Source: Candidatus Methylomirabilis sp.
Lineage (GTDB): Bacteria; DYJV01
NCBI GenBank assembly: GCA_020722945.1
Contig: DYJV01000033.1
Span: 14,854-24,813, forward strand
Direction: 5' to 3'
Length of the DNA stretch: 9,960 bases
The translations under genes were made by a program, and so were the position numbers. Positions 130 to 9,960 of the stretch are shown here, piece by piece (positions within the stretch are counted from its first letter, which is position 1; each line of letters begins with the position of its first letter). The notes under the pieces are model-generated. The model did no database searches. It was not told where the DNA came from and was given only the letters and a program-made list of their open reading frames with translations.

Positions 130-375
130 ATGAAAAAAATTATTTTAGCTGTTATTTTTACATTTCTTTTATCTACTTTCAGTTTTGCTGCTGATATTAA
201 AGATTTGGTTGATAAAGGGGACAAGGCTTGTAAAATAGGTAATTTTATGGCTGCCAAAAAGTTTTATAAAGAAGCTATTCAGTCTGATCCCAAAAATGAA
301 GATCTATGGAAAAAGTATGAAAAATCTCTTAAAAGCCTCTATGGTGGCGGTGCTACAGAAAGTGGTGGTTGCTAA
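130..375 (+). CDS. Small exported TPR-like protein with Cys-terminal tail
   Basis: An 81-residue protein of unknown function. Residues 1-20 form a clear Sec signal peptide: two lysines, a hydrophobic core, and a small-residue cleavage site around Ala20/Ala21. The mature part is about 60 residues. Residues 25-58 look like one tetratricopeptide helix pair (GD-A---G-F--A---Y--AI--DP pattern, with Asp53-Pro54 closing the repeat), followed by a charged helix. The C-terminus is Gly-rich and ends GGGATESGGC, so the last residue is Cys81; the only other cysteine is Cys34. No lipobox is present, so export to the periplasm rather than lipidation is expected. The start is well supported by an AGGAGGT site a few bases upstream and by the promoter at 68-96. 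A terminator follows, so it is probably monocistronic. A single TPR suggests a protein-protein contact role, but that is inference. Confidence 0.8.
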   Translation: MKKIILAVIFTFLLSTFSFAADIKDLVDKGDKACKIGNFMAAKKFYKEAIQSDPKNEDLWKKYEKSLKSLYGGGATESGGC

Positions 376-411
376 TACTATCTGATAGTAAGTTTCTGTA
401 ATTTTAATTTT

Positions 412-459
412 AAAGCCAGTCAAAGCATATATCTTCTCTTTGTCTGGCTTTGTTTTTTT
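412..459 (+). terminator. Intrinsic terminator after the TPR protein gene
   Basis: The arms 412-425 and 438-451 pair over 14 positions with one mismatch (AAAGCCAG then CAAAG against CTTTG then CTGGCTTT). The loop is 12 bases, and a run of seven T follows at 453-459. This is a classic rho-independent terminator. It separates the small exported protein from the TorD-family gene, which therefore needs its own promoter or read-through. Confidence 0.88.
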
Positions 460-490
460 ATAAATCCAATATTTATCACACAAAATCATA

Positions 491-964
491 ATGCACAATC
501 TTATCCACTTAATAAATAGAGTATCATCTGCTTTCACTTATCCCTCGCCAAAAGTATTAAATCCTTGCCAACTTTCAAATATTACTAACTTAGAGGTAGA
601 GTATACAAAATTATTTGTAAATAGTTTTTATCAAACACCTATCTCTCTTAATTTATCTTTTTATACAGAGAGAGAACCATCTAAAATATTAAGTGAGCTA
701 TCAAATATTTACCAATCTTTAAATCTCCAAATAGACTCTTCAGTAAAGGAGAGGGCTGACCATCTTACTATACTCCTCGAATTTTTTGGTATATTAATTG
801 AAGATAGCACCCCAAAAGATTTTATTGCACTATTTTATAATAATTACCTCAGATACTTCAAAAAAATTCCTGAATTAGTAAAACAGCGGAGTAAAGATAG
901 CTTTTATATTGAGGCAGCAGATATTTTAGATCAATTTTTTAAAGAAGTGGAAGAAAGGTTATAA
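491..964 (+). CDS. TorD-family molybdoenzyme maturation chaperone
   Basis: A 157-residue cytoplasmic, largely helical protein of the TorD/DmsD/NarJ-like family. These chaperones bind apo-forms of DMSO-reductase-superfamily molybdoenzymes, assist cofactor insertion and proofread Tat export. Family hallmarks visible are an N-terminal R--S-AF-YP stretch (residues 10-18), the signature LEVEYTKLFV (34-43), a Pro/Tyr segment (50-60), and ADHL---LEF (89-98), where the family has its conserved (A/P)DH motif. Typical members are about 180-230 residues, so this is a short version. The ATG is the first in-frame start after a stop at 461-463, but no convincing ribosome binding site precedes it, so the start is less certain than the family call. 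The TAA stop shares one base with the ATG of the helicase gene downstream, indicating translational coupling. No molybdoenzyme is in the window; its partner could lie to the left or elsewhere. Confidence 0.82.
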   Translation: MHNLIHLINRVSSAFTYPSPKVLNPCQLSNITNLEVEYTKLFVNSFYQTPISLNLSFYTEREPSKILSELSNIYQSLNLQIDSSVKERADHLTILLEFFGILIEDSTPKDFIALFYNNYLRYFKKIPELVKQRSKDSFYIEAADILDQFFKEVEERL

Positions 965-2868
965 TGCTTAAAGAGTATTCAAAAAGATATTTTGATAAAG
1001 ATGGGATACTTTCAAAAAATATAAGCAACTTTGAAGATAGAGAAAGCCAGAGAGTAATGGCTGATACGGTATCCGAAATGCTTACAGAAGGTGGTTTTTT
1101 TATAGTAGAAGCAGGGACAGGAACAGGGAAATCTATATCTTATCTGATCCCATCGATTCTTTCTCAACAGAGGGTTCTTATTGCTACCAAAAGTAAAAAT
1201 TTACAAGAGCAGCTTTTCTTTAAAGATATACAAATGATAAAATCTCTTATCCCATTCAATTTTAAAAGTATCTGTATTAAGGGGAGAAACAACTATCTCT
1301 GCAAAAATAAACTCTCAAAACTCCGAGTTAAAAACTTTCTCTTTAAACTTGATATAATAGAAGATGTAGCCAAATGGGCAGAAGTAACAGTGACAGGGGA
1401 TATTGCAGAGTTAGGAGATATTGCTTCCAATGTCCATTCTCTAAATATCACATCTACTTCTGAAAGTTGTCTTGGTAGTAAATGTAGATTCTTTAACGAG
1501 TGTTTTGTATACAGATTAAAGATAGAAGCTGAAAAATCAGATATAATAATAGCAAATTATCATCTGTTATTTGCAGATTACAGAGTAAAAAATGAAGGAT
1601 TTGGGAAAGTTTTACCTAATTTCAAATATCTAATATGTGATGAGGCTCACTCAATTGAAGATATTGCAACAGAGTATTTTAGCAGCAGCATATCGAGATA
1701 CCAGATTGCAAATTTCTTTAAAGATATAGATTTTGAAAAGTTTAAATCTGCAAAGAAGCTTGAAAATGTCTTTAATGAATTTTTTGCAATAGTTGAAAGC
1801 TCTATAAATGAAGATAAGAAGATAGAAATTGAAAATATAAAGAGTAAGAAGTTAGAAGATAAGGGGGAAGAGACTCTTAATCTTCTCAATATATTTATAA
1901 ATGAGCTACAAGATAATGGTTCAGAAGAGCTGTCCATCGACAGGCAAGATAGTATCAATTTAATAAAAAGAGCTTTGTCATTTATAGAAACATTAAATAA
2001 TATTTTTTTTAATGATGATAAATTTCTCATTAAATGGGTTGAAAGAGCAAACAAGAATATATTGTTAAAATACTCCCCAGTTGATATCTCTTCAAATCTT
2101 AAAGATTTTTTTTCTGAACTTAAAGGTGTTCTTTTTACCTCAGCAACATTGTCAGTAAACAGAAATTTCAGTTTCTTCAAAAATAGGCTTGGTATCACCA
2201 ATTCAAATAGTGAAAAGATATTTAACTCTAATTTTGATTACAAAAAGCAGGCACTTCTATTTATTCCCAAATCAATGCCGGAACCAAATGAAAATTCTTT
2301 CCCTGATAAGATGGCTTCAGAACTTGAAAATTTAATCAATATAACCAATGGCAATGCTTTTGTTCTCTTTACAAACATAAGAAATATGGAGAAGGTGTAT
2401 AGTATTGTCAAGGATAAGATTGATTACCCTATATTTATACAGGGGGAAGCATCCAATTTATTTTTACTTGATAATTTTAGAAGCAACCGTAACTCAATAC
2501 TTTTTGGGAGTTTCTCATTTTGGGAAGGTATAGATATACAAGGTGAGAATCTATCTCTTGTAGTAATTGAAAAATTACCTTTTTCTGTTCCGTCTGACCC
2601 ATTAAAGAGAGCAAGAATAGAGAAAGTAAAATCTGATAATGGCTCACCCTTCTTTGATTATCAGGTTCCAGAAGCTGTAATGCTCCTTAAACAGGGTGTT
2701 GGTAGGCTCATAAGAAGTAGAACTGATGTAGGTATTATTTCAATTTTTGATACAAGGTTGATAAATAAAAGTTATGGTAAAGTTTTCATAAAAAATATTC
2801 CTGAAATGGAGATATTGCATGATCTTAATAAGTTAGAAGAAAAATATAAGATATTAAAAAAATATTGA
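964..2868 (+). CDS. dinG: DinG/YoaA-type Fe-S DNA helicase
   Basis: A 634-residue superfamily 2, XPD-like ATP-dependent 5'-3' DNA helicase, a group acting in DNA repair and resolution of R-loops or G-quadruplexes. Motifs in order: Walker A EAGTGTGKS (49-57), motif Ia region around 72-82, four cysteines placed as in the 4Fe-4S domain (Cys113, Cys169, Cys174, Cys180), the DEAH box (226-229), TSATL (392-396), motif V FWEGIDIQG (519-527), motif VI QGVGRLIRS (577-585) and a terminal DTRL (596-599). Length matches YoaA (about 636) better than E. coli DinG (about 716). No N-terminal exonuclease domain is present, unlike Bacillus-type DinG. The gene begins within the stop codon of the torD-like gene (TAATG overlap), with a weak GAAAGG site inside that gene's end. 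Family and all catalytic motifs are clear. The choice between DinG and YoaA naming is not settled by sequence reading alone. Confidence 0.92.
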   Translation: MLKEYSKRYFDKDGILSKNISNFEDRESQRVMADTVSEMLTEGGFFIVEAGTGTGKSISYLIPSILSQQRVLIATKSKNLQEQLFFKDIQMIKSLIPFNFKSICIKGRNNYLCKNKLSKLRVKNFLFKLDIIEDVAKWAEVTVTGDIAELGDIASNVHSLNITSTSESCLGSKCRFFNECFVYRLKIEAEKSDIIIANYHLLFADYRVKNEGFGKVLPNFKYLICDEAHSIEDIATEYFSSSISRYQIANFFKDIDFEKFKSAKKLENVFNEFFAIVESSINEDKKIEIENIKSKKLEDKGEETLNLLNIFINELQDNGSEELSIDRQDSINLIKRALSFIETLNNIFFNDDKFLIKWVERANKNILLKYSPVDISSNLKDFFSELKGVLFTSATLSVNRNFSFFKNRLGITNSNSEKIFNSNFDYKKQALLFIPKSMPEPNENSFPDKMASELENLINITNGNAFVLFTNIRNMEKVYSIVKDKIDYPIFIQGEASNLFLLDNFRSNRNSILFGSFSFWEGIDIQGENLSLVVIEKLPFSVPSDPLKRARIEKVKSDNGSPFFDYQVPEAVMLLKQGVGRLIRSRTDVGIISIFDTRLINKSYGKVFIKNIPEMEILHDLNKLEEKYKILKKY

Positions 2869-2925
2869 ACCTATCGAATTATTATTGTATGACTTTAATA
2901 ATTTTATTTTTTTCAGGGGGTTGTT

Positions 2926-4125
2926 ATGGATGTTAATGAACAGTTAAACCTTATAAAAAAGGGTGCTAATGAAATATTAAGAGTAGAAGAGCTAATAGAT
3001 AAGATAAATAAAAAAGGGAAGCTAAAAATAAAAGCAGGATTTGACCCAACTGCTCCTGACTTACATTTAGGGCATACTGTTTTGATCCAGAAGCTGAAAC
3101 ATTTTCAGGATTTGGGACATTATGTATATTTTTTAATAGGAGATTTCACTGGTAGAATTGGTGATCCTACCGGAAAATCTGAAACAAGAAAAGCTCTTAC
3201 AGAGGAGGAGGTCAGAAAAAATGCTGAAACCTACAAAGAGCAAATTTTTAAAATTCTTGATGAATCAAAGACAAGAGTGGTCTTTAATAGTGAATGGCTT
3301 TCATCTTTATCTACTGAGCAGATGGTAAAGTTATGTTCAAAATATACAGTTGCGAGGATGCTTGAGAGGGATGATTTTAATATGAGACTGAAAAACAATA
3401 TCCCTATAAGTATTCACGAATTTCTATATCCACTTTTTCAAGGATACGATTCTGTTGCAATTGAGAGTGATGTTGAGCTTGGTGGGACAGACCAAAAATT
3501 TAATCTTTTGGTAGGTAGAGAGTTGCAGAGGGATTTTGCTCAAGAGCCTCAAGTTATACTTACAGTTCCAATATTAGAAGGGTTGGATGGTAAAAATAAG
3601 ATGAGTAAATCTCTTGGGAATTATATTGGGATACAGGAGAATCCAAATGATATTTATGGAAAAGTAATGTCTATATCAGATGAACTGATGGTGAGGTATT
3701 ATGAGCTTTTGAGTGATATATCTTACAACGATTTTATAAAGTTAAAGGCTGATCTAAAAAGTGGGGAGTTACACCCTATGCAAGCAAAGAAAAATCTTGC
3801 ATTTGAAATTGTAAAAAGATTTCACGGATACACAAAAGCAAAAGAAGCTGAGGATTATTTTGTTCAGCTATTTACCAAACGAGAAGCCCCAGAAGAGATT
3901 GAAGACCTTGATATTGCTATATCTGAGGGTAAGATAACAATATTTAAGCTCATCAAAGATGCCAACCTTGTTCCTTCATATAGTGAGGCGAAACGCCTAA
4001 TAAAACAGGGTGGAGTCAAGATTGACAATGAAAAGGTTTCAGATGAGAATATCGAGTTGTCAAAAGGATTTACAGGAATTATAAAAGTTGGTAAAAAAAT
4101 AATTAAAAAGATAACTATTAAATAA
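2926..4125 (+). CDS. tyrS: Tyrosyl-tRNA synthetase
   Basis: A 399-residue class I aminoacyl-tRNA synthetase that charges tRNA-Tyr with tyrosine in the cytoplasm. The Rossmann catalytic domain carries the HIGH-type motif HLGH (47-50) preceded by [10 protein letters not shown], the conserved GGTDQKFN segment (186-193), and KMSKS (225-229) in [11 protein letters not shown]. The C-terminal 60 residues (about 339-399) form an S4 RNA-binding domain, with the hallmark [17 protein letters not shown] at 351-367. Length and motif style fit the TyrZ-like bacterial branch (about 400-420 residues), so the protein is complete. A GGGGG-containing ribosome binding site sits at 2916-2920, six bases less one before the ATG. 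The 57-base gap from the helicase gene shows only a weak possible promoter (TTGAAC at 2865, TATGAC at 2888, 17 bases apart). No T-box leader is visible. Confidence 0.97.
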
Positions 4126-4153
4126 CTGACTATAGTTATTTCACAAATCAAAT

Positions 4154-4160
4154 AAAGGAG
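4154..4160 (+). promoter_or_regulatory. Ribosome binding site fixing the TTG start of hisG
   Basis: AAAGGAG lies seven bases before the TTG at 4168. No in-frame ATG lies close by that would preserve the conserved N-terminal beta strand (LGIPKGSLQ), so this site decides in favour of the TTG start. Confidence 0.8.
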
Positions 4161-4167
4161 TTAAAAT

Positions 4168-5034
4168 TTGAAACTTAAATTAGGTATTCCAAAAGGTTCA
4201 CTACAAGATGCTACCATAAATCTTTTTACAAAAGCTGGGTATAAAATATCTGTTAATTCAAGGTCTTACTTCCCCTCAATTGATGATCCAGAGATAGAGT
4301 GTATGCTGATAAGAGCACAAGAGATGGCAAGGTATGTTGAATCTGGGGTTTTGGATGCAGGTATCACAGGGCATGATTGGGTAGTTGAAAATGGTGCTGA
4401 TGTGATTGAGGTTAAGGAACTGCAATATGCAAAAGCAACGCTAAACAAAGTTAGATGGGTTTTGGCTGTTCAGGAATCTTCAAATATTAACAAGGCTGAA
4501 GATCTTCAAGGGAAAACAATCTCTACTGAAGTTGTCAATATTACCCGAAATTATCTAAATAGCAAGGGTGTAAATGCAAAGGTAGAATTCTCTTACGGAG
4601 CCACAGAGGTTAAAGTTCCACATCTTGCAGATGCAATTGTTGAAATCACAGAAACAGGTTCATCGCTAAAGGCAAACAAGCTTAAGATCATAGATACTAT
4701 CTTGGAAACAACCACGGTTTTTATTGCAAACCAAAATTCTTACAAAGATGATAGCAAGAGAAGAAAGATAGACAAATTGATAATGCTTCTTGAAGCGGCA
4801 CTGAATGCACAGACAAGAGTTGCAATAATGATGAATGTCCCTAAAGATCGACTAAATGATTTTTTAAATGTTATACCTGATAAAATGCCCACAATTTCTA
4901 CACTTTCGGATCAGAAATGGCTTGACCTTATTGTTATCTTAAAAGAGGAGAGGGTCAGAGATCTTATCCCTATATTCAAAGAGTTAGGGGCATCTGGAAT
5001 AGTCGAATTGCCGCTCAATAAATTTTTGGAGTGA
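4168..5034 (+). CDS. hisG: ATP phosphoribosyltransferase, long form
   Basis: A 288-residue HisG catalysing the first step of histidine synthesis: ATP plus PRPP gives N1-(5-phosphoribosyl)-ATP. N-terminal LGIPKGSLQ (5-13), the domain I segment [18 protein letters not shown] (54-71), and the PRPP-binding loop [12 protein letters not shown] (159-170) are all typical. Residues from about 213 to the end form the C-terminal ACT-like domain of long-form HisG, which mediates hexamer formation and feedback inhibition by histidine. Such enzymes work without HisZ. Translation starts at TTG, supported by a well-spaced AAAGGAG. The gene sits 42 bases after tyrS and only four bases before the next gene, whose ribosome binding site lies inside the end of hisG. 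No other his genes are in the window, so the histidine pathway is scattered in this genome or lies outside the window. Confidence 0.96.
5028..5033 (+). promoter_or_regulatory. Ribosome binding site inside the hisG end
   Basis: GGAGTG overlaps the last codons and stop of hisG and lies about six bases before the TTG at 5039. It supports that TTG as the start of the lyase-family gene, since the conserved TLRDG motif begins only eleven codons later and no ATG precedes it. The position implies translational coupling to hisG. Confidence 0.65.
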
Positions 5035-5038
5035 TAAA

Positions 5039-5911
5039 TTGTCATCTTTTATAACTTTAAATGATGTAACATTGAGAGATGGTCTCCAAAATGAACCTTA
5101 CTTTGTTCCAACAGAGGATAAAGTAGCACTTGCAAATCTTATTCTTGATTCGAATATAAAAAGTATGGAGCTCACATCATTTGTTAACCCCAAGGCAGTC
5201 CCTCAGCTTTCAGACAATCTTGAACTTTCCTCATCAGAAGATTTGAAAGATGGTTATTTTAGTGCGTTAGTACCCAATCCAAAAGGTTACGAAAGAGCCT
5301 TAAAATCAACTAAAATAAAGGAGATTGTTCTTTTTGTGAGTGCTTGTGAAAAGCATAATCTCAAAAATGTCTCTAAAAGTATTGATGATAGCCTAAATAA
5401 TTTTTTGGAAATATTTAGACAGAACACCCGTTTTGTTATAAAGCCTTCAATATCAATGGTTTTTGGATCACCATTTACAGGTGGCTTCCCTGAGGAGAGA
5501 GTCCTTTTTAAAATTATCCAATTTTTTATAAAAATGGGGGTAAAAGAGATAACACTTTCAGACACATGGGGAGCTGTTGATTACAAAAATTTTGAAAAAC
5601 AGTTGAAGAGTATTTTAAAAAATTTTGATTCACTGCTATTTTCACTTCATTTGCATAGTATTGGAGCATCTATCTCAGATAAATTAAGATCTTCACTTGA
5701 TAATGGGATCGCCAAATTTGACACTGCTTTTATGGATCTTGGAGGGTGTCCATTTTCGCCTGAAAAGGGTGGGAACCTGAATATTAGGGAAATTATTAAA
5801 ATATCATATTCTAAAGGTTACAAAACAGGGATTGAAGCAGAAAATATTGAAAATATAGAACAATTTATACTAAATATGAAGAAAGAAGAGTTAAAAAAAG
5901 AGCCAGCATAA
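5039..5911 (+). CDS. HMG-CoA lyase family protein with intact active site
   Basis: A 290-residue TIM-barrel protein of the HMGL-like (pyruvate carboxyltransferase) family, most like hydroxymethylglutaryl-CoA lyase, which splits HMG-CoA into acetoacetate and acetyl-CoA. Catalytic positions known from human HMGCL can be matched: Arg13-Asp14 in TLRDG (Arg41/Asp42), Glu44 in MELTSF (Glu72), metal ligands His204 and His206, Cys237 in the LGGCPFSPEKGGN loop (Cys266), and Asn246 nine residues later (Asn275). Oddities: the Asp usually following the second His is Ser207, the usual GCP(Y)EG motif reads GSPFTG (143-148), and the C-terminal region after the Cys loop is short and lysine-rich. The start is TTG, with its ribosome binding site inside hisG. 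The neighbours suggest a plus-strand operon with hisG, although the chemistry relates instead to the convergent acyl-CoA operon. Family is sure; the exact substrate is not. Confidence 0.88.
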   Translation: MSSFITLNDVTLRDGLQNEPYFVPTEDKVALANLILDSNIKSMELTSFVNPKAVPQLSDNLELSSSEDLKDGYFSALVPNPKGYERALKSTKIKEIVLFVSACEKHNLKNVSKSIDDSLNNFLEIFRQNTRFVIKPSISMVFGSPFTGGFPEERVLFKIIQFFIKMGVKEITLSDTWGAVDYKNFEKQLKSILKNFDSLLFSLHLHSIGASISDKLRSSLDNGIAKFDTAFMDLGGCPFSPEKGGNLNIREIIKISYSKGYKTGIEAENIENIEQFILNMKKEELKKEPA

Positions 5912-5921
5912 AGCTGGCTCT
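5893..5921 (-). terminator. Intrinsic terminator of the minus-strand acyl-CoA operon
   Basis: A perfect 9-bp stem (5899-5907 with 5913-5921, core GAGCCAGC/GCTGGCTC) encloses a 5-base loop. Read on the minus strand it is followed by seven T (complement of 5893-5899), a textbook intrinsic terminator. On the plus strand the same hairpin has no immediate T-run, and the stop codon of the plus-strand lyase gene starts in its loop. Minus transcripts therefore end inside the 3' end of the convergent gene. Confidence 0.85.
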
Positions 5922-5942
5922 CATATATCTTGCCTTAAATTT

Positions 5943-6959
5943 TTATCTTCCTGTAAATTCTTTAGGTATTCTACCACTTCTTATACACTCTGATCTTAAT
6001 TTTCTACCAACAATTTTCTCAACCATTTGACCGATTTCGAGTATCTTGTCAATATTTATCCCTGTCTCTATCTTCATTTCATCAAGCATAACAAGAACAT
6101 CTTCAGTAGGTATCAACCCTACGATATTAGGATCTTTGTAGTAATATTTGCCAGTGCCTGCAATAGGAACGCCATCCATAAAATTTGCTGGTTGACCACC
6201 TATCCCACCAAAACAACCTTCAAAATGAGTAATACCTGCTTGTAAAGCGGCAATAACATTAGCAGTCCCCCATCCCCTTGTTTGGTGAAAATGTGCTATA
6301 TGAAGCTCTGTTTTTGGAAATGCGTCCATTATCATAGAGAAATATTCGTAAACTTTGTTTGGAGGAGCAGAACCATCATGGTCAGCATGTTCAATATCAG
6401 TAGCTCCTATATCGAGCCATCTTTTGGTAAATTCAACAGCTTTTTTAAGTTCTGTAGGACCCTCAATAGGACAACCCCAAATAGTGCTTACTGTCCCACA
6501 TACTTCAATACCTGCTTCTCTTGCCATCTTTACATACTTCTCTGACATATCCCAATACTCTTTTAAAGAAATACCTGAATTCCTTTTATGGTGGCTTTCA
6601 CTTGTAGAAACCATAAGTAAAATTCTATCAGGTCCCCAACCCTCTTTTTTTGCATTAATGGCTCTCTCAATGGCTTTTTCTCTGATAGTTATAACAGTAA
6701 ACTTTGCATCTTTTATCTTATCTGCAACTTTTTTGCTTGCTCTGATAGCTTTCATAAGCTCTTCTGCATCTTTAAATTGAGGCATATATTGAGGAGGACC
6801 AAAATTTGTAACTTCCATATTTTTTACCCCAGCAAGTAACAACTGCTCTAATACCCACAATTTTGCTTGTGTAGGGATAAAAATCTCCTCATGTTGGAAA
6901 CCATCTCTAACAGTAATATCTCCCCAAGTGATTTTTTTAGGGTATTTAAGTTCTGCCAT
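5943..6959 (-). CDS. HMG-CoA lyase-like protein lacking the signature Cys
   Basis: A 338-residue HMGL-like TIM-barrel protein. It has TVRDGFQHEE (16-25, with Arg18-Asp19), MEVTNFG (48-54, Glu49), a WGCPIEG stretch (161-167, matching the lyase GCPYEG motif), and HFHQTRG (223-229) with both metal-binding His. A C-terminal part (TEDV--ML----IETGINIDKIL) is typical of HMG-CoA lyases. The signature loop reads CFGGIGGQPANF: the catalytic Cys of GLGGCP is Gln256, and the Asn nine residues later is Pro265. Cys249 lies seven residues upstream of that Gln. The reaction may thus differ from standard HMG-CoA cleavage, perhaps on another acyl-CoA or 2-oxoacid, but this is inference. It starts at ATG behind AAAAGGAGG and lies 25 bases after the carboxyltransferase gene, so the two are surely co-transcribed. 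It is about 40 residues longer than mature human HMG-CoA lyase. Confidence 0.87.
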   Translation of the reverse strand: MAELKYPKKITWGDITVRDGFQHEEIFIPTQAKLWVLEQLLLAGVKNMEVTNFGPPQYMPQFKDAEELMKAIRASKKVADKIKDAKFTVITIREKAIERAINAKKEGWGPDRILLMVSTSESHHKRNSGISLKEYWDMSEKYVKMAREAGIEVCGTVSTIWGCPIEGPTELKKAVEFTKRWLDIGATDIEHADHDGSAPPNKVYEYFSMIMDAFPKTELHIAHFHQTRGWGTANVIAALQAGITHFEGCFGGIGGQPANFMDGVPIAGTGKYYYKDPNIVGLIPTEDVLVMLDEMKIETGINIDKILEIGQMVEKIVGRKLRSECIRSGRIPKEFTGR

Positions 6960-6984
6960 ACATTTCCTCCTTTTCTATGATATT

Positions 6985-8718
6985 TTAGCCGACTATAACT
7001 CTCGGAGTCAACATTTGGTGATGTGGGCAAACTGAAGTAGGATTTTGATACGCAGCTTCAGCAAATGTTGTCAAATATTTTCTAACTTTATCAAAAGATA
7101 CTATCTCATCTATAAAACCTTTTTGAGCACAATATATAGGTCTTGATTTTGCATAATACTCTTTTGCAAGAGCATTCATTTTGTCTATCGTAGGCTGTAA
7201 ATCTTTTCCAGCTTCTTTATCTTTTACAAGTCTTCTTGCAAATGTAGCTGTAGAAGCTGTCTCTCCGTGCATTACATATATCTCTGTTGTAGGAACTCCT
7301 ATTGTAAAAGCATTGTTCCTATTGCCTTGTGGTCCACCCATAATGTAGTGAGCAGCAGCAGAACCTTTTCTCACGACTACACACATCATAGGAACTTGAG
7401 AAGATTCAATTGAGTATATAAGTGATTGTCCAATACCGAGAAGCTCAGCCTGCTCAGCAATATCACCAACATCAATTCCTGAAGTGTCTTGTAACCAAAT
7501 TACAGGCATTCTATCTCTACCGCACAATGTAACAAATTCGTTCATTTTTATTAAACCTTGTCTGTAAATTTTTCCACCAATACCAATGTATTGTCCATTT
7601 GCATATTCAGGGTATTTTGCACCGAGAAAGCCCTGTCTGTTAGCAATAACACCAACAGGAAGACCATTCATCTTAGCAATACCACAATATACTTCTGGGC
7701 CATATGATGGTTTAAATTCAAGATGCTCACTCCCATCAAATAATCTTGATAAAACTTCATCCATATTGTAAACCATCTTTTGGTTGAATGGAATAAGGTA
7801 GTTTAGGTCATCTTGAGAGAATTTGGGCTCTTTAGGAGTATCAACTCTAAATATCTCTGGATTGTATGAAGGGTATTTAGCAAGATAATCTTTAATAGCA
7901 TCCAATACACCCTCTTCTGTATCAAATACTTTTTTAAAGAAACCTGTCTGATCGTGATGTATCTTGGTGCTTCCTGGTGGAACAGCCTTAAATTTTTTGG
8001 TAGCTTCTATAAGCTGCTCTGCACCTTGGATATCAAAATTCCCTTTTGGAGCCATACCACTAACAATACCGCCCCCACCAACAGCCATATTAGCATTTTT
8101 ATGTGCAAATATGGTAGCAGGACTTATTGCGTGATAACCACCACCAGCAGGGTTTGTCCCATAAACACCTACAATAACAGGGATACCCTTTTGTATAAGT
8201 TCGGCATGTCTAAAAAATGTTCTCCCGCCTGATCTTCTTCCTGCGTAAACCTCTTCCTGCTCAGCAAGACTAACTCCTGAGCAGTTTAGTATCCAAACAA
8301 GTGGAATTCTTAATGTTTCTGCAATATCTTGTGCTCTGAATATATTTTCACTCTGTCCAGGGATCCATGCACCAGCAACAACTTTGTTATTTGAAGCTAT
8401 AAGTGATACCCATTTGCCTGATATCTTTGCAAGACCATTGATAACTCCTGTTGAGCCGTATTGATTGAAAGCAGGATCATATAAAGAGTTGAGTGGAATA
8501 AATTCATCGCAGATATAGTTGATTCTTTCAAATGCAGTTTTCTCGCCTCTTTTGTAAACTTGCTCATCAGGTGAGCCTGCATTTTTAGCTTTTTCAAGAG
8601 CTTCAAGAACCTCCTTCTCAACTTTTTTGATATTAGCAATATCATCTGCTGCCTTTTGTCTCTGTTTTTCTGTCAACTCTTTTCCAAATGGTTTCATTTG
8701 TTTAAAATACTTCCACAT
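6985..8718 (-). CDS. GcdA-type biotin-dependent carboxyltransferase (glutaconyl-CoA decarboxylase alpha-like)
   Basis: A 577-residue acyl-CoA carboxyltransferase with two crotonase-fold halves. Such proteins move CO2 between an acyl-CoA and biotin. The N-half oxyanion region GTNPAGGGYH lies at 187-196, the C-half GSAAAHYIMGG at 452-462. From memory, the sequence and length closely follow the alpha subunit of Acidaminococcus glutaconyl-CoA decarboxylase (about 587 residues), for example NCSGV (145-149), ELIQKGIPVIVGVYGTNP (173-190) and the EAAYQNP--VCPHHQM end (554-569). It differs from the shorter MccB/PccB type. As GcdA it would take CO2 off glutaconyl-CoA and pass it to biotin for a sodium-pumping membrane subunit. 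With a biotin carboxylase it could instead carboxylate, e.g. methylcrotonyl-CoA. Neither partner is in the window. It starts at ATG behind AAAAGGAGG. Family is very sure; substrate and direction are open. Confidence 0.93.
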   Translation of the reverse strand: MWKYFKQMKPFGKELTEKQRQKAADDIANIKKVEKEVLEALEKAKNAGSPDEQVYKRGEKTAFERINYICDEFIPLNSLYDPAFNQYGSTGVINGLAKISGKWVSLIASNNKVVAGAWIPGQSENIFRAQDIAETLRIPLVWILNCSGVSLAEQEEVYAGRRSGGRTFFRHAELIQKGIPVIVGVYGTNPAGGGYHAISPATIFAHKNANMAVGGGGIVSGMAPKGNFDIQGAEQLIEATKKFKAVPPGSTKIHHDQTGFFKKVFDTEEGVLDAIKDYLAKYPSYNPEIFRVDTPKEPKFSQDDLNYLIPFNQKMVYNMDEVLSRLFDGSEHLEFKPSYGPEVYCGIAKMNGLPVGVIANRQGFLGAKYPEYANGQYIGIGGKIYRQGLIKMNEFVTLCGRDRMPVIWLQDTSGIDVGDIAEQAELLGIGQSLIYSIESSQVPMMCVVVRKGSAAAHYIMGGPQGNRNNAFTIGVPTTEIYVMHGETASTATFARRLVKDKEAGKDLQPTIDKMNALAKEYYAKSRPIYCAQKGFIDEIVSFDKVRKYLTTFAEAAYQNPTSVCPHHQMLTPRVIVG

Positions 8719-8765
8719 AACAACCTCCTTTTATTGTATAAAATAATCTACCATCAATTCAATTA

Positions 8766-8811
8766 CCCTGAAAAATTTAGAAATTATGTATAATATATGA
8801 TACAATCAGGG
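8766..8811. repeat. Nested inverted repeat between hydratase and carboxyltransferase genes
   Basis: CCCTGA (8766-8771) pairs with TCAGGG (8806-8811), and inside it GTAT (8788-8791) pairs with ATAC (8800-8803). It lies in the middle of a 147-base gap in an otherwise tight operon. There is no T-run after it on either strand, so it is not an ordinary terminator. An operator or RNA-processing site is possible but unproven. Confidence 0.35.
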
Positions 8812-8865
8812 ATATATGATGTAAGTTTCCACTTTTGAATGCAAAAAAATTGCCAAATATAGTGG

Positions 8866-9648
8866 TTATTCACCCTTATACTGAGGTTTTCTCTTCTCTT
8901 TAAAAGCTTCCAACCCTTCAATCCTATCTTTTGTAGGGATAAGAATATTGTAGCATTGGGTTTCAAAAGCAAGTCCAGTATAAATATCAGCTTCACTACC
9001 ATAATTGATAGCCATTTTTGCCTGTTCAACAGCAATAGGTCCATTTTGACAAATTGCATCTGCCATTTGAAGAGCTTCAGTCATGAGGTTTTCTGGGGCA
9101 ACTACCTTGTTTACCATATTTATCTCGTAAGCCTCATCAGCATTAATACGTTTTGCAAGAAAGATTAGCTCCTTTGCCTTGCCTTTACCAACTGCCCTTA
9201 CTAATCTCTGTGTCCCGCCAGCACCAGGTATAATTGCCAAAGAAGTTTCTGTGAGACCCATTTTAGCAGTAGATGATGCAATCCGTATGTCACTTGCAAG
9301 AGCAAGCTCTGTCCCTCCACCAAGAGCAATACCGTTAATAGCAGCAATTACAGGTTTGGGAAGATACTCTACAGCAGTAAATGTAGTTCTTATTGTAAAG
9401 ATATATCTTTTAACATCATCAGGTGATAGTTCTCTTCTCTCTTTGAGATCTGCACCTGAACAGAAAGCTTTGTCCCCAGCTCCTGTGATGATAATTACCC
9501 TTATACCTTTATCAAAGTTAGCCTCAGTAATAAAATGATTAAGCTCTTTTAACATTCCAAAATTAAGAGAGTTCATACTTTCAGGTCTATTGAGAGTTAG
9601 AATTGCAGTAAGGGCTTTCTGTTCAACTTTTATAAATTGGTAATCCAT
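8866..9648 (-). CDS. Enoyl-CoA hydratase, AUH/LiuC (methylglutaconyl-CoA hydratase)-like
   Basis: A 260-residue crotonase-family enzyme that adds water to a 2-enoyl-CoA. The oxyanion hole is formed by Ala66 in SGADLKE (64-70) and Gly111 in ALGGGTEL (108-115). Both catalytic glutamates of true hydratases are present: Glu114 and Glu134, twenty residues apart as in rat mitochondrial hydratase (Glu144/Glu164). The stretch AKMGLTETSLAIIPGAGGT (128-146) and the C-terminal IPTKDR-EGL-AFKEKR---YKGE pattern (237-260) are strikingly like human AUH, a methylglutaconyl-CoA hydratase. General short-chain enoyl-CoA hydratases of anaerobes can share these features, so crotonyl-CoA remains possible. The ATG lies behind a perfect AAAGGAGG. 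It is the first gene of the minus-strand set, 147 bases before the carboxyltransferase gene. Product pairing with the lyase-like gene supports a hydration step to HMG-CoA or a similar intermediate. Confidence 0.93.
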   Translation of the reverse strand: MDYQFIKVEQKALTAILTLNRPESMNSLNFGMLKELNHFITEANFDKGIRVIIITGAGDKAFCSGADLKERRELSPDDVKRYIFTIRTTFTAVEYLPKPVIAAINGIALGGGTELALASDIRIASSTAKMGLTETSLAIIPGAGGTQRLVRAVGKGKAKELIFLAKRINADEAYEINMVNKVVAPENLMTEALQMADAICQNGPIAVEQAKMAINYGSEADIYTGLAFETQCYNILIPTKDRIEGLEAFKEKRKPQYKGE

Positions 9649-9734: not shown

Positions 9735-9781
9735 ATTACGTAAACTGTAAAATATCGTAGGAGTGAAAGCACTTGATCTCA

Positions 9782-9803
9782 AATAAAAAATCTCTTTTTT
9801 ATT
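9782..9803. repeat. A/T dyad adjoining the first double-hairpin element
   Basis: AATAAAAAA (9782-9790) and TTTTTTATT (9795-9803) form a perfect 9-bp A/T stem with a TCTC loop. Its right arm ends on the ATT that opens the first double-hairpin element. The second element has a less perfect A/T dyad at the same place, so the dyad may be part of the repeat unit. Confidence 0.5.
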
Positions 9804-9845
9804 CCCCTCTGCTCAAGGGGTGGCATCGTCAGATGACGGGGTGGT
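9801..9845. repeat. REP-like double-hairpin element, copy 1
   Basis: A 45-base element. It opens with ATTCCCCTCT, closes with CGGGGTGGT, and contains two small hairpins: CCCCT/AGGGG (9804-9808 with 9816-9820) and CGTC/GACG (9827-9830 with 9835-9838). It matches copy 2 in both ends and in layout, while loop and second-stem sequences differ. This looks like a dispersed extragenic palindromic element rather than coding DNA. Confidence 0.7.
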
Positions 9846-9854
9846 GGTTATTAA

Positions 9855-9882
9855 TGTTGAATTTTGAATGTTTAATTTTGAA
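9855..9882 (+). repeat. 14-bp tandem repeat, two units
   Basis: Units 9855-9868 (TGTTGAATTTTGAA) and 9869-9882 (TGTTTAATTTTGAA) differ at one position. They lie between the two double-hairpin elements and are directly followed by TTGACAACGG. No coding potential is seen. Confidence 0.6.
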
Positions 9883-9911
9883 TTGACAACGGATAATTAT
9901 TTTTTTTAAAA

Positions 9912-9952
9912 ATTCCCCTCTACGGAGGGGTGCCGCAAAGCGGCGGGGTGGT
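9912..9952. repeat. REP-like double-hairpin element, copy 2
   Basis: A 41-base direct repeat of the element at 9801, in the same orientation. It opens with ATTCCCCTCT, forms CCCCTC/GAGGGG (9915-9920 with 9925-9930) with a TACG loop and CCGC/GCGG (9933-9936 with 9940-9943), and closes with CGGGGTGGT. The second stem differs from copy 1 on both arms yet still pairs, which means the structure rather than the base sequence is kept. Confidence 0.72.
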
Positions 9953-9960
9953 CATTCTTT

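Follow-up and report, generated by a model that had tools for sequence, protein, structure and literature searches.

A GcdA-type carboxyltransferase between leucine-type genes in a Candidatus Methylomirabilis genome: a putative glutaconyl-CoA decarboxylase subunit in the MccB position

Which reaction would a carboxyltransferase of the glutaconyl-CoA decarboxylase type (GcdA) catalyse when its gene lies in an operon otherwise built like those for leucine breakdown? This question is raised by a stretch of 9,960 nucleotides from Candidatus Methylomirabilis sp., a bacterium whose anaerobic lineage is poorly known (the window; genome G000, contig C48, positions 14854-24813), whose minus strand carries, from 5' to 3', co-directional genes for an enoyl-CoA hydratase, a GcdA-type carboxyltransferase and HMGL-B, a protein with the fold of 3-hydroxy-3-methylglutaryl-CoA (HMG-CoA) lyase but without its catalytic cysteine. 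We consider it moderately likely that the middle gene encodes a subunit of a glutaconyl-CoA decarboxylase serving the breakdown of aromatic compounds and glutaryl-CoA, and that it has its place in a hybrid operon. The genome is a draft of 2.51 Mb in 184 contigs, with 98.1% completeness and 5.8% contamination.

The order, coordinates and identities of the three genes had been given correctly in an earlier note made from this sequence alone, as profile and PDB matches bear out. The hydratase gene occupies positions 8866-9648 of the window, the carboxyltransferase gene 6985-8718 and the HMGL-B gene 5943-6959, all on the minus strand, and they are separated by 147 and 25 base pairs (bp), respectively. 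A terminator-like hairpin, in which a 10-pair stem is followed by TTTTT, lies at the end of the operon (5898-5922, minus strand), and no terminator-like site was found on the minus strand between the three genes, which are presumably co-transcribed.

The earlier note had taken the carboxyltransferase (577 amino acids) to resemble GcdA and not MccB, the beta subunit of 3-methylcrotonyl-CoA carboxylase (MCC), and we agree. Its top PDB matches are the GcdA structures 1pix (E 2e-220) and 3gf3 (E 2e-218), with 56-57% identity over nearly the whole length; the next matches have E values of 1e-38 to 1e-41, and the MccB structure 3u9r reaches only 4e-38. Identity to the MccBs of the related operons described below is 22-26%, and identity to the GcdAs of G386 and G139, two genomes of a small separate phylum that hold the closest GcdA, is 67-68%. 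Full-length homology places the protein nearer to GcdA than to MccB, PccB or MmdA, and MccB is not its closest family by sequence. At the threshold used, GcdA was matched in two of 386 sampled genomes (the window's own and G139). In G386 and G139, the gene stands alone or at a contig end.

A comparison of gene neighbourhoods, which the earlier note had proposed, was made with HMGL-B. Scanning one genome per species gave 503 relatives, of which 80 loci (L021-L100) at 70-77% identity were kept, from Desulfobacterota, Bacteroidota, Chlorobiota/Ignavibacteria, Clostridia-type bacteria, Cloacimonadota and unnamed bacteria. The genome G001 is the only listed one from the same order as G000; the remaining relatives share only the domain. 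In 26 of the 80 loci, the two co-directional genes directly upstream of HMGL-B encode a hydratase and then MccB, while GcdA stands beside HMGL-B in none of the 80. Across these loci, the arrangement in the window is found in no other genome; all of its enzyme families are known, with the exception of HMGL-B in detail. The MccB of Desulfacinum has human MCC beta as its best match (E 4e-137). Ten of the 26 loci include an acyl-CoA dehydrogenase sharing 84-100% identity with the Desulfacinum enzyme, in which the isovaleryl-type signature EIGAGTSE and the Glu of the LDIER motif are present, and others have a second type of acyl-CoA dehydrogenase (ACD-b). In Bacteroidota, the operons additionally include MccA or an OadA-like biotin protein, a CoA-transferase and a cysteine-containing HMG-CoA-lyase-like gene. 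In six Bacteroidota-type loci (L055, L065, L077, L079, L081 and L100), a protein resembling OadA/5S lies near MccB and no MccA was recognised; in L100 this protein has 728 amino acids and a biotin domain. The arrangement possibly represents a methylcrotonyl-CoA transcarboxylase.

The hydratase of the window (260 amino acids; ECH_1, E 4e-66) belongs to a lineage resembling methylglutaconyl-CoA hydratase. It scores 357.8 bits with PRK07657, 5 bits under the cut-off of 363, and its top PDB match is 3kqf, with human AUH lower among the matches (E 8e-69). In a tree, it is sister to 31 hydratases from HMGL-B operons of Desulfobacterota, most of them linked to MccB (SH support 0.986), and it is 63-67% identical to the closest of the hydratases from HMGL-B operons. 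In Desulfococcus multivorans, proteomics detected a hydratase, Mcc and HmgL solely in cells grown on isovalerate (PMC5109826). The gene order of the relatives, the grouping of the hydratase and these proteomic data together point to an operon frame of the anaerobic leucine/isovalerate type, as the earlier note had supposed, with GcdA occupying the MccB slot. Compared with the isovalerate/leucine clusters of Desulfobacterota (Desulfacinum and others, and the isovalerate-induced one of D. multivorans, whose HmgL may be an HMGL-B), the hydratase and HMGL-B are orthologous and stand in the same order around the carboxyltransferase; however, the latter is MccB there and GcdA here, and the acyl-CoA dehydrogenase is encoded elsewhere in G000. 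The earlier note had also pointed to the lack of an adjacent biotin carboxylase. This is true of the available DNA but is not distinctive, since none is adjacent in the DNA of any of the 26 loci.

If the frame suggests leucine, the rest of the genome suggests another substrate. Contig C69 encodes a glutaryl-CoA dehydrogenase that scores 619 bits against a cut-off of 470 for NF045552, a curated non-decarboxylating family, and whose best PDB match is the Desulfococcus glutaryl-CoA dehydrogenase 3mpi (E 2e-150). The product of non-decarboxylating glutaryl-CoA dehydrogenases is glutaconyl-CoA, so the cell has a source of this substrate. By a Val/Tyr rule, such enzymes have Val where decarboxylating ones have Tyr; the C69 enzyme has the motif Val-Glu-Gly-Thr, as well as an Arg that the other acyl-CoA dehydrogenases of G000 lack, except for its neighbour on C69. 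At positions 156-4371 of this contig (L142), two genes resembling glutaryl-CoA dehydrogenase flank a regulator-like gene, one with VEGT (the Desulfococcus non-decarboxylating type) and one with YEGT (the human decarboxylating type). The same cluster encodes two enzymes of the lower benzoyl-CoA pathway, a 6-hydroxycyclohexene-carbonyl-CoA dehydrogenase (TIGR03201, 492.6 bits; cut-off 338.65) and a 6-oxocyclohexene-carbonyl-CoA hydrolase (TIGR03200, 581.7; cut-off 464.45). In G001, both dehydrogenases, a short-chain dehydrogenase/reductase gene and a hydratase occur in the same order, with the same cluster start, and C69 therefore probably belongs to G000 despite the contamination of the draft. 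With these genes, the breakdown of glutarate or glutaconate has the strongest genomic support among the three readings offered in the earlier note.

GcdA by itself only exchanges a carboxyl group between an acyl-CoA and biotin. Decarboxylation normally requires a beta subunit, and carboxylation requires AccC or a transcarboxylation partner; the operon encodes none of these. A Carboxyl_trans search found only three carboxyltransferases in G000: GcdA, MmdA beside methylmalonyl-CoA mutase on contig C10, and an MmdA/PccB-like protein on C41 beside an acyl-CoA dehydrogenase, a TetR-like regulator and a CoA ligase. AccD was not recognised by this search despite the presence of AccB and AccC. Neither MccA nor MccB was found in the genome (98% complete, 184 contigs), and we therefore reject a plain leucine operon with MccAB encoded elsewhere. 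For the same reason, the ordinary leucine route with distant partners that the earlier note had considered does not stand in that form, although a leucine role with GcdA as the carboxyltransferase is possible. As to partners that the note had suggested looking for, the genome encodes AccC (the sole biotin carboxylase found, beside AccB), one beta subunit of a sodium-pump decarboxylase (contig C161; score 454, cut-off 190.6), which is unlinked to GcdA, and a biotin carrier of 69 amino acids on C72 beside an OadA/PycB-like protein. No dehydrogenase in G000 carries the isovaleryl-type signature. For a route from 2-hydroxyglutarate to glutaconyl-CoA, the genome has an HGD-D-like protein and a single CoA-transferase pair, but a complete set was not demonstrated. 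The note had held that a complete MccA/MccB operon elsewhere, together with a beta subunit and carrier linked to glutarate genes, would make this an ordinary glutaconyl-CoA system; no such operon was found, and neither the beta subunit nor the carrier is linked to glutarate genes.

Under the reading that we favour, aromatic compounds of the benzoyl-CoA type would be degraded to glutaryl-CoA, and the non-decarboxylating dehydrogenase would supply glutaconyl-CoA. GcdA would transfer the carboxyl group of this compound to a biotin carrier, freeing crotonyl-CoA, and the carboxybiotin would then be cleaved, probably by the single sodium-pump beta subunit. We regard glutaconyl-CoA decarboxylation as the likeliest reaction because of this substrate source, the possible pump partner and a precedent in Geobacter bemidjiensis, where a gene for a non-decarboxylating dehydrogenase adjoins gcdA and other Gcd subunits are reported to be absent (PMC2996986). 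Both genomes combine a dehydrogenase of this type and GcdA with genes for aromatic degradation, without a full set of Gcd genes. However, the two genes are neighbours in G. bemidjiensis (Gbem_1452-1453), whereas in G000 they are on separate contigs, with gcdA inside the leucine-type operon, and G000 has a beta subunit. The Na+-translocating glutaconyl-CoA decarboxylase of Acidaminococcus fermentans and Clostridium symbiosum is similar in its alpha subunit (56-57% identity), and the pump family is represented in G000 by one beta subunit; unlike in these organisms, there is no gcdABCD cluster here, the pocket loop differs (see below) and, in place of a long-linker carrier like GcdC, only the 69-residue carrier and AccB were found.

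Several observations weigh against this reading. The gcdA gene is unlinked to C69. A Biotin_lipoyl search of G000 gave the short carrier, AccB and two weaker matches, among which no long-linker carrier like GcdC was recognised. The flanking hydratase and HMGL-B point to leucine and not to glutarate. The human-type decarboxylating dehydrogenase of C69 could offer a way round GcdA. Moreover, in the two genomes with the closest GcdA, no dehydrogenase exceeds the NF045552 cut-off (the best scores are 296 bits in G386 and 358 bits in G139), and, conversely, the dehydrogenase of G001 occurs there without a detected GcdA. We accordingly reject a strict pairing of GcdA with the non-decarboxylating dehydrogenase, as each occurs without the other. 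This dissociation and the lack of linkage to C69 leave room for a GcdA in the leucine branch.

A less likely alternative is that GcdA has taken over the task of MccB in the breakdown of leucine or isovalerate and carboxylates 3-methylcrotonyl-CoA (or catalyses the reverse), either exclusively or besides acting on glutaconyl-CoA; the carboxybiotin might come from AccC, from oxaloacetate by transcarboxylation or from glutaconyl-CoA itself. The GcdA gene holds precisely the place of MccB, flanked by a hydratase and an HMGL-B orthologous to those of the relatives, and neither MccA nor MccB was detected in the genome. On contig C136, an ACD-b that is 72% identical to the one in a relative's operon (L051) is clustered with a hydratase, a KASIII-like gene and a DUF6125 gene, the last of which is also found in the relatives' operons. 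G386, with the closest GcdA and no NF045552 dehydrogenase above the cut-off, has ACD-b and a DUF6125-like gene too. The reading of that genome for MccB and HMGL-B covered about 1.1 of 2.0 Mb. ACD-b adjoins MeaB and a hydratase in both G386 (contig C103, L162) and G139 (C100, L163), with methylmalonyl-CoA-mutase-like genes nearby in G139. The chemistry is compatible as well: GcdA acts on the gamma carbon of its substrate, and this is also the carbon carboxylated in the MCC-type lineage (PMC4673880). In MCC, selectivity has been assigned to Phe191 (PMC4673880); the aligned residue is Gly in the window's GcdA, as in classical GcdA, which argues against an MccB function, yet geranyl-CoA carboxylase also has Gly there and accepts methylcrotonyl-CoA. 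The pocket loop adjoining this residue reads GGRTFF in the window and GGRSFF in G386, both unlike GGGTPFF of classical GcdA; the loop of the window is nearer to FGRTFY of human MCC than to the classical one. This may be taken as a hint, not as a test. Against a takeover stand the low identity to the relatives' MccBs, the lack of an isovaleryl-type dehydrogenase in G000 and the separate need for GcdA in this genome. We found no paper that ties GcdA to the methylcrotonyl-CoA step, apart from the structural comparison in PMC4673880.

Other combinations seem less probable. We think it unlikely that one GcdA serves both branches by passing CO2 from glutaconyl-CoA to 3-methylcrotonyl-CoA via a shared biotin carrier, with HMGL-B completing the route; if it did, isovalerate could be oxidised without an ATP-dependent biotin carboxylase. 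Similarly doubtful is that the three genes share a transcript but serve separate pathways, the hydratase acting on crotonyl-CoA from GcdA and HMGL-B in an unrelated lyase reaction. Such crotonyl-CoA would indeed require a hydratase, and many genomes have HMGL-B without an MccB nearby (26 of the 80 loci have no labelled gene directly upstream on its strand); however, many relatives keep the hydratase together with HMGL-B, and the window's hydratase clusters with MccB-linked ones. AibA and AibB, which decarboxylate in myxobacteria, are CoA-transferase-like and not of the GcdA type. A reverse route like the myxobacterial LiuC-AibAB-AibC pathway, in which HMG-CoA would be dehydrated and decarboxylated to 3-methylcrotonyl-CoA with sodium pumping and then reduced to isovaleryl-CoA, is very improbable. 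The sodium-pump beta subunit and the KASIII-like gene in the ACD-b cluster (C136, L128, positions 14062-15057, between the hydratase and DUF6125) would fit, and such a route is known with other enzymes, but the decarboxylation step in myxobacteria belongs to AibA/B (PMC5004256), the KASIII-like protein matches FabH and not HMG-CoA synthase, and nothing else suggests isovaleryl-CoA synthesis. The decarboxylating, ion-pumping route from HMG-CoA in the earlier note thus found little support, with one unlinked beta subunit and an HMG-CoA synthase not demonstrated.

The locus offers a natural test of whether GcdA and MccB, whose substrates are alike and react at the same carbon, can substitute for each other, and of how the methylcrotonyl-CoA step proceeds in anaerobes that have no biotin carboxylase dedicated to it.

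HMGL-B (338 amino acids; HMGL-like, E 2.5e-37) raises a question of its own. The best fold matches of its structure model (pLDDT 86.8) are eight HMG-CoA lyase entries (Z 36-39.5), followed by the next family at Z 29.6. Like the HMG-CoA lyases of human (HMGCL), Bacillus and Pseudomonas, it retains the Arg, Asp, Glu and His that correspond in the alignment to active-site residues. Unlike them, it has a loop insertion of about 17 residues and lacks what we take to be, in lyase numbering, the catalytic Cys266 (Gln in 40 of 40 aligned sequences) and the metal ligand Asn275 (Leu in 39 of 40). Gln256 and Asn259 of HMGL-B are invariant in these 40 sequences, and Asn259 lies where it may replace the lost metal ligand. 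HMGL-B is widespread, with 503 occurrences among prokaryotes (most of the named ones are anaerobes), and it still lacks an assigned function. A cysteine-containing HMG-CoA-lyase-like gene often adjoins its relatives.

Such a gene, HMGL-A, also lies in the window (5039-5911, plus strand), convergent with the operon and just past its terminator; it falls outside the coordinates that the earlier note had given for the operon. It retains the motif GGCPFSP, scores 222 bits with PRK05692 (cut-off 246) and has the HMG-CoA lyase 1ydo as its top PDB match (E 9e-46). Only 4 bp separate it from the preceding hisG (4168-5911 for both), so it may share a transcript with that gene instead of with the acyl-CoA genes, and it may use the plus-strand copy of the hairpin at 5898-5922. 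The plus strand further carries a small open reading frame and genes for a TorD-like chaperone, a YoaA/DinG helicase and tyrS; tyrS and hisG were named from their own sequence, without a family search. Upstream of the hydratase, only 312 bp remain before the contig ends, together with the window. At this break (9761-9960, no strand assigned) lies a dispersed intergenic repeat of the pattern ACCACCCCG...CCCCTCC...GAGGGGAAT, with similar stretches on contigs C10, C20, C136 and C164, between genes and, in several cases, at contig ends; the repeat is probably the cause of the assembly break upstream of the hydratase.

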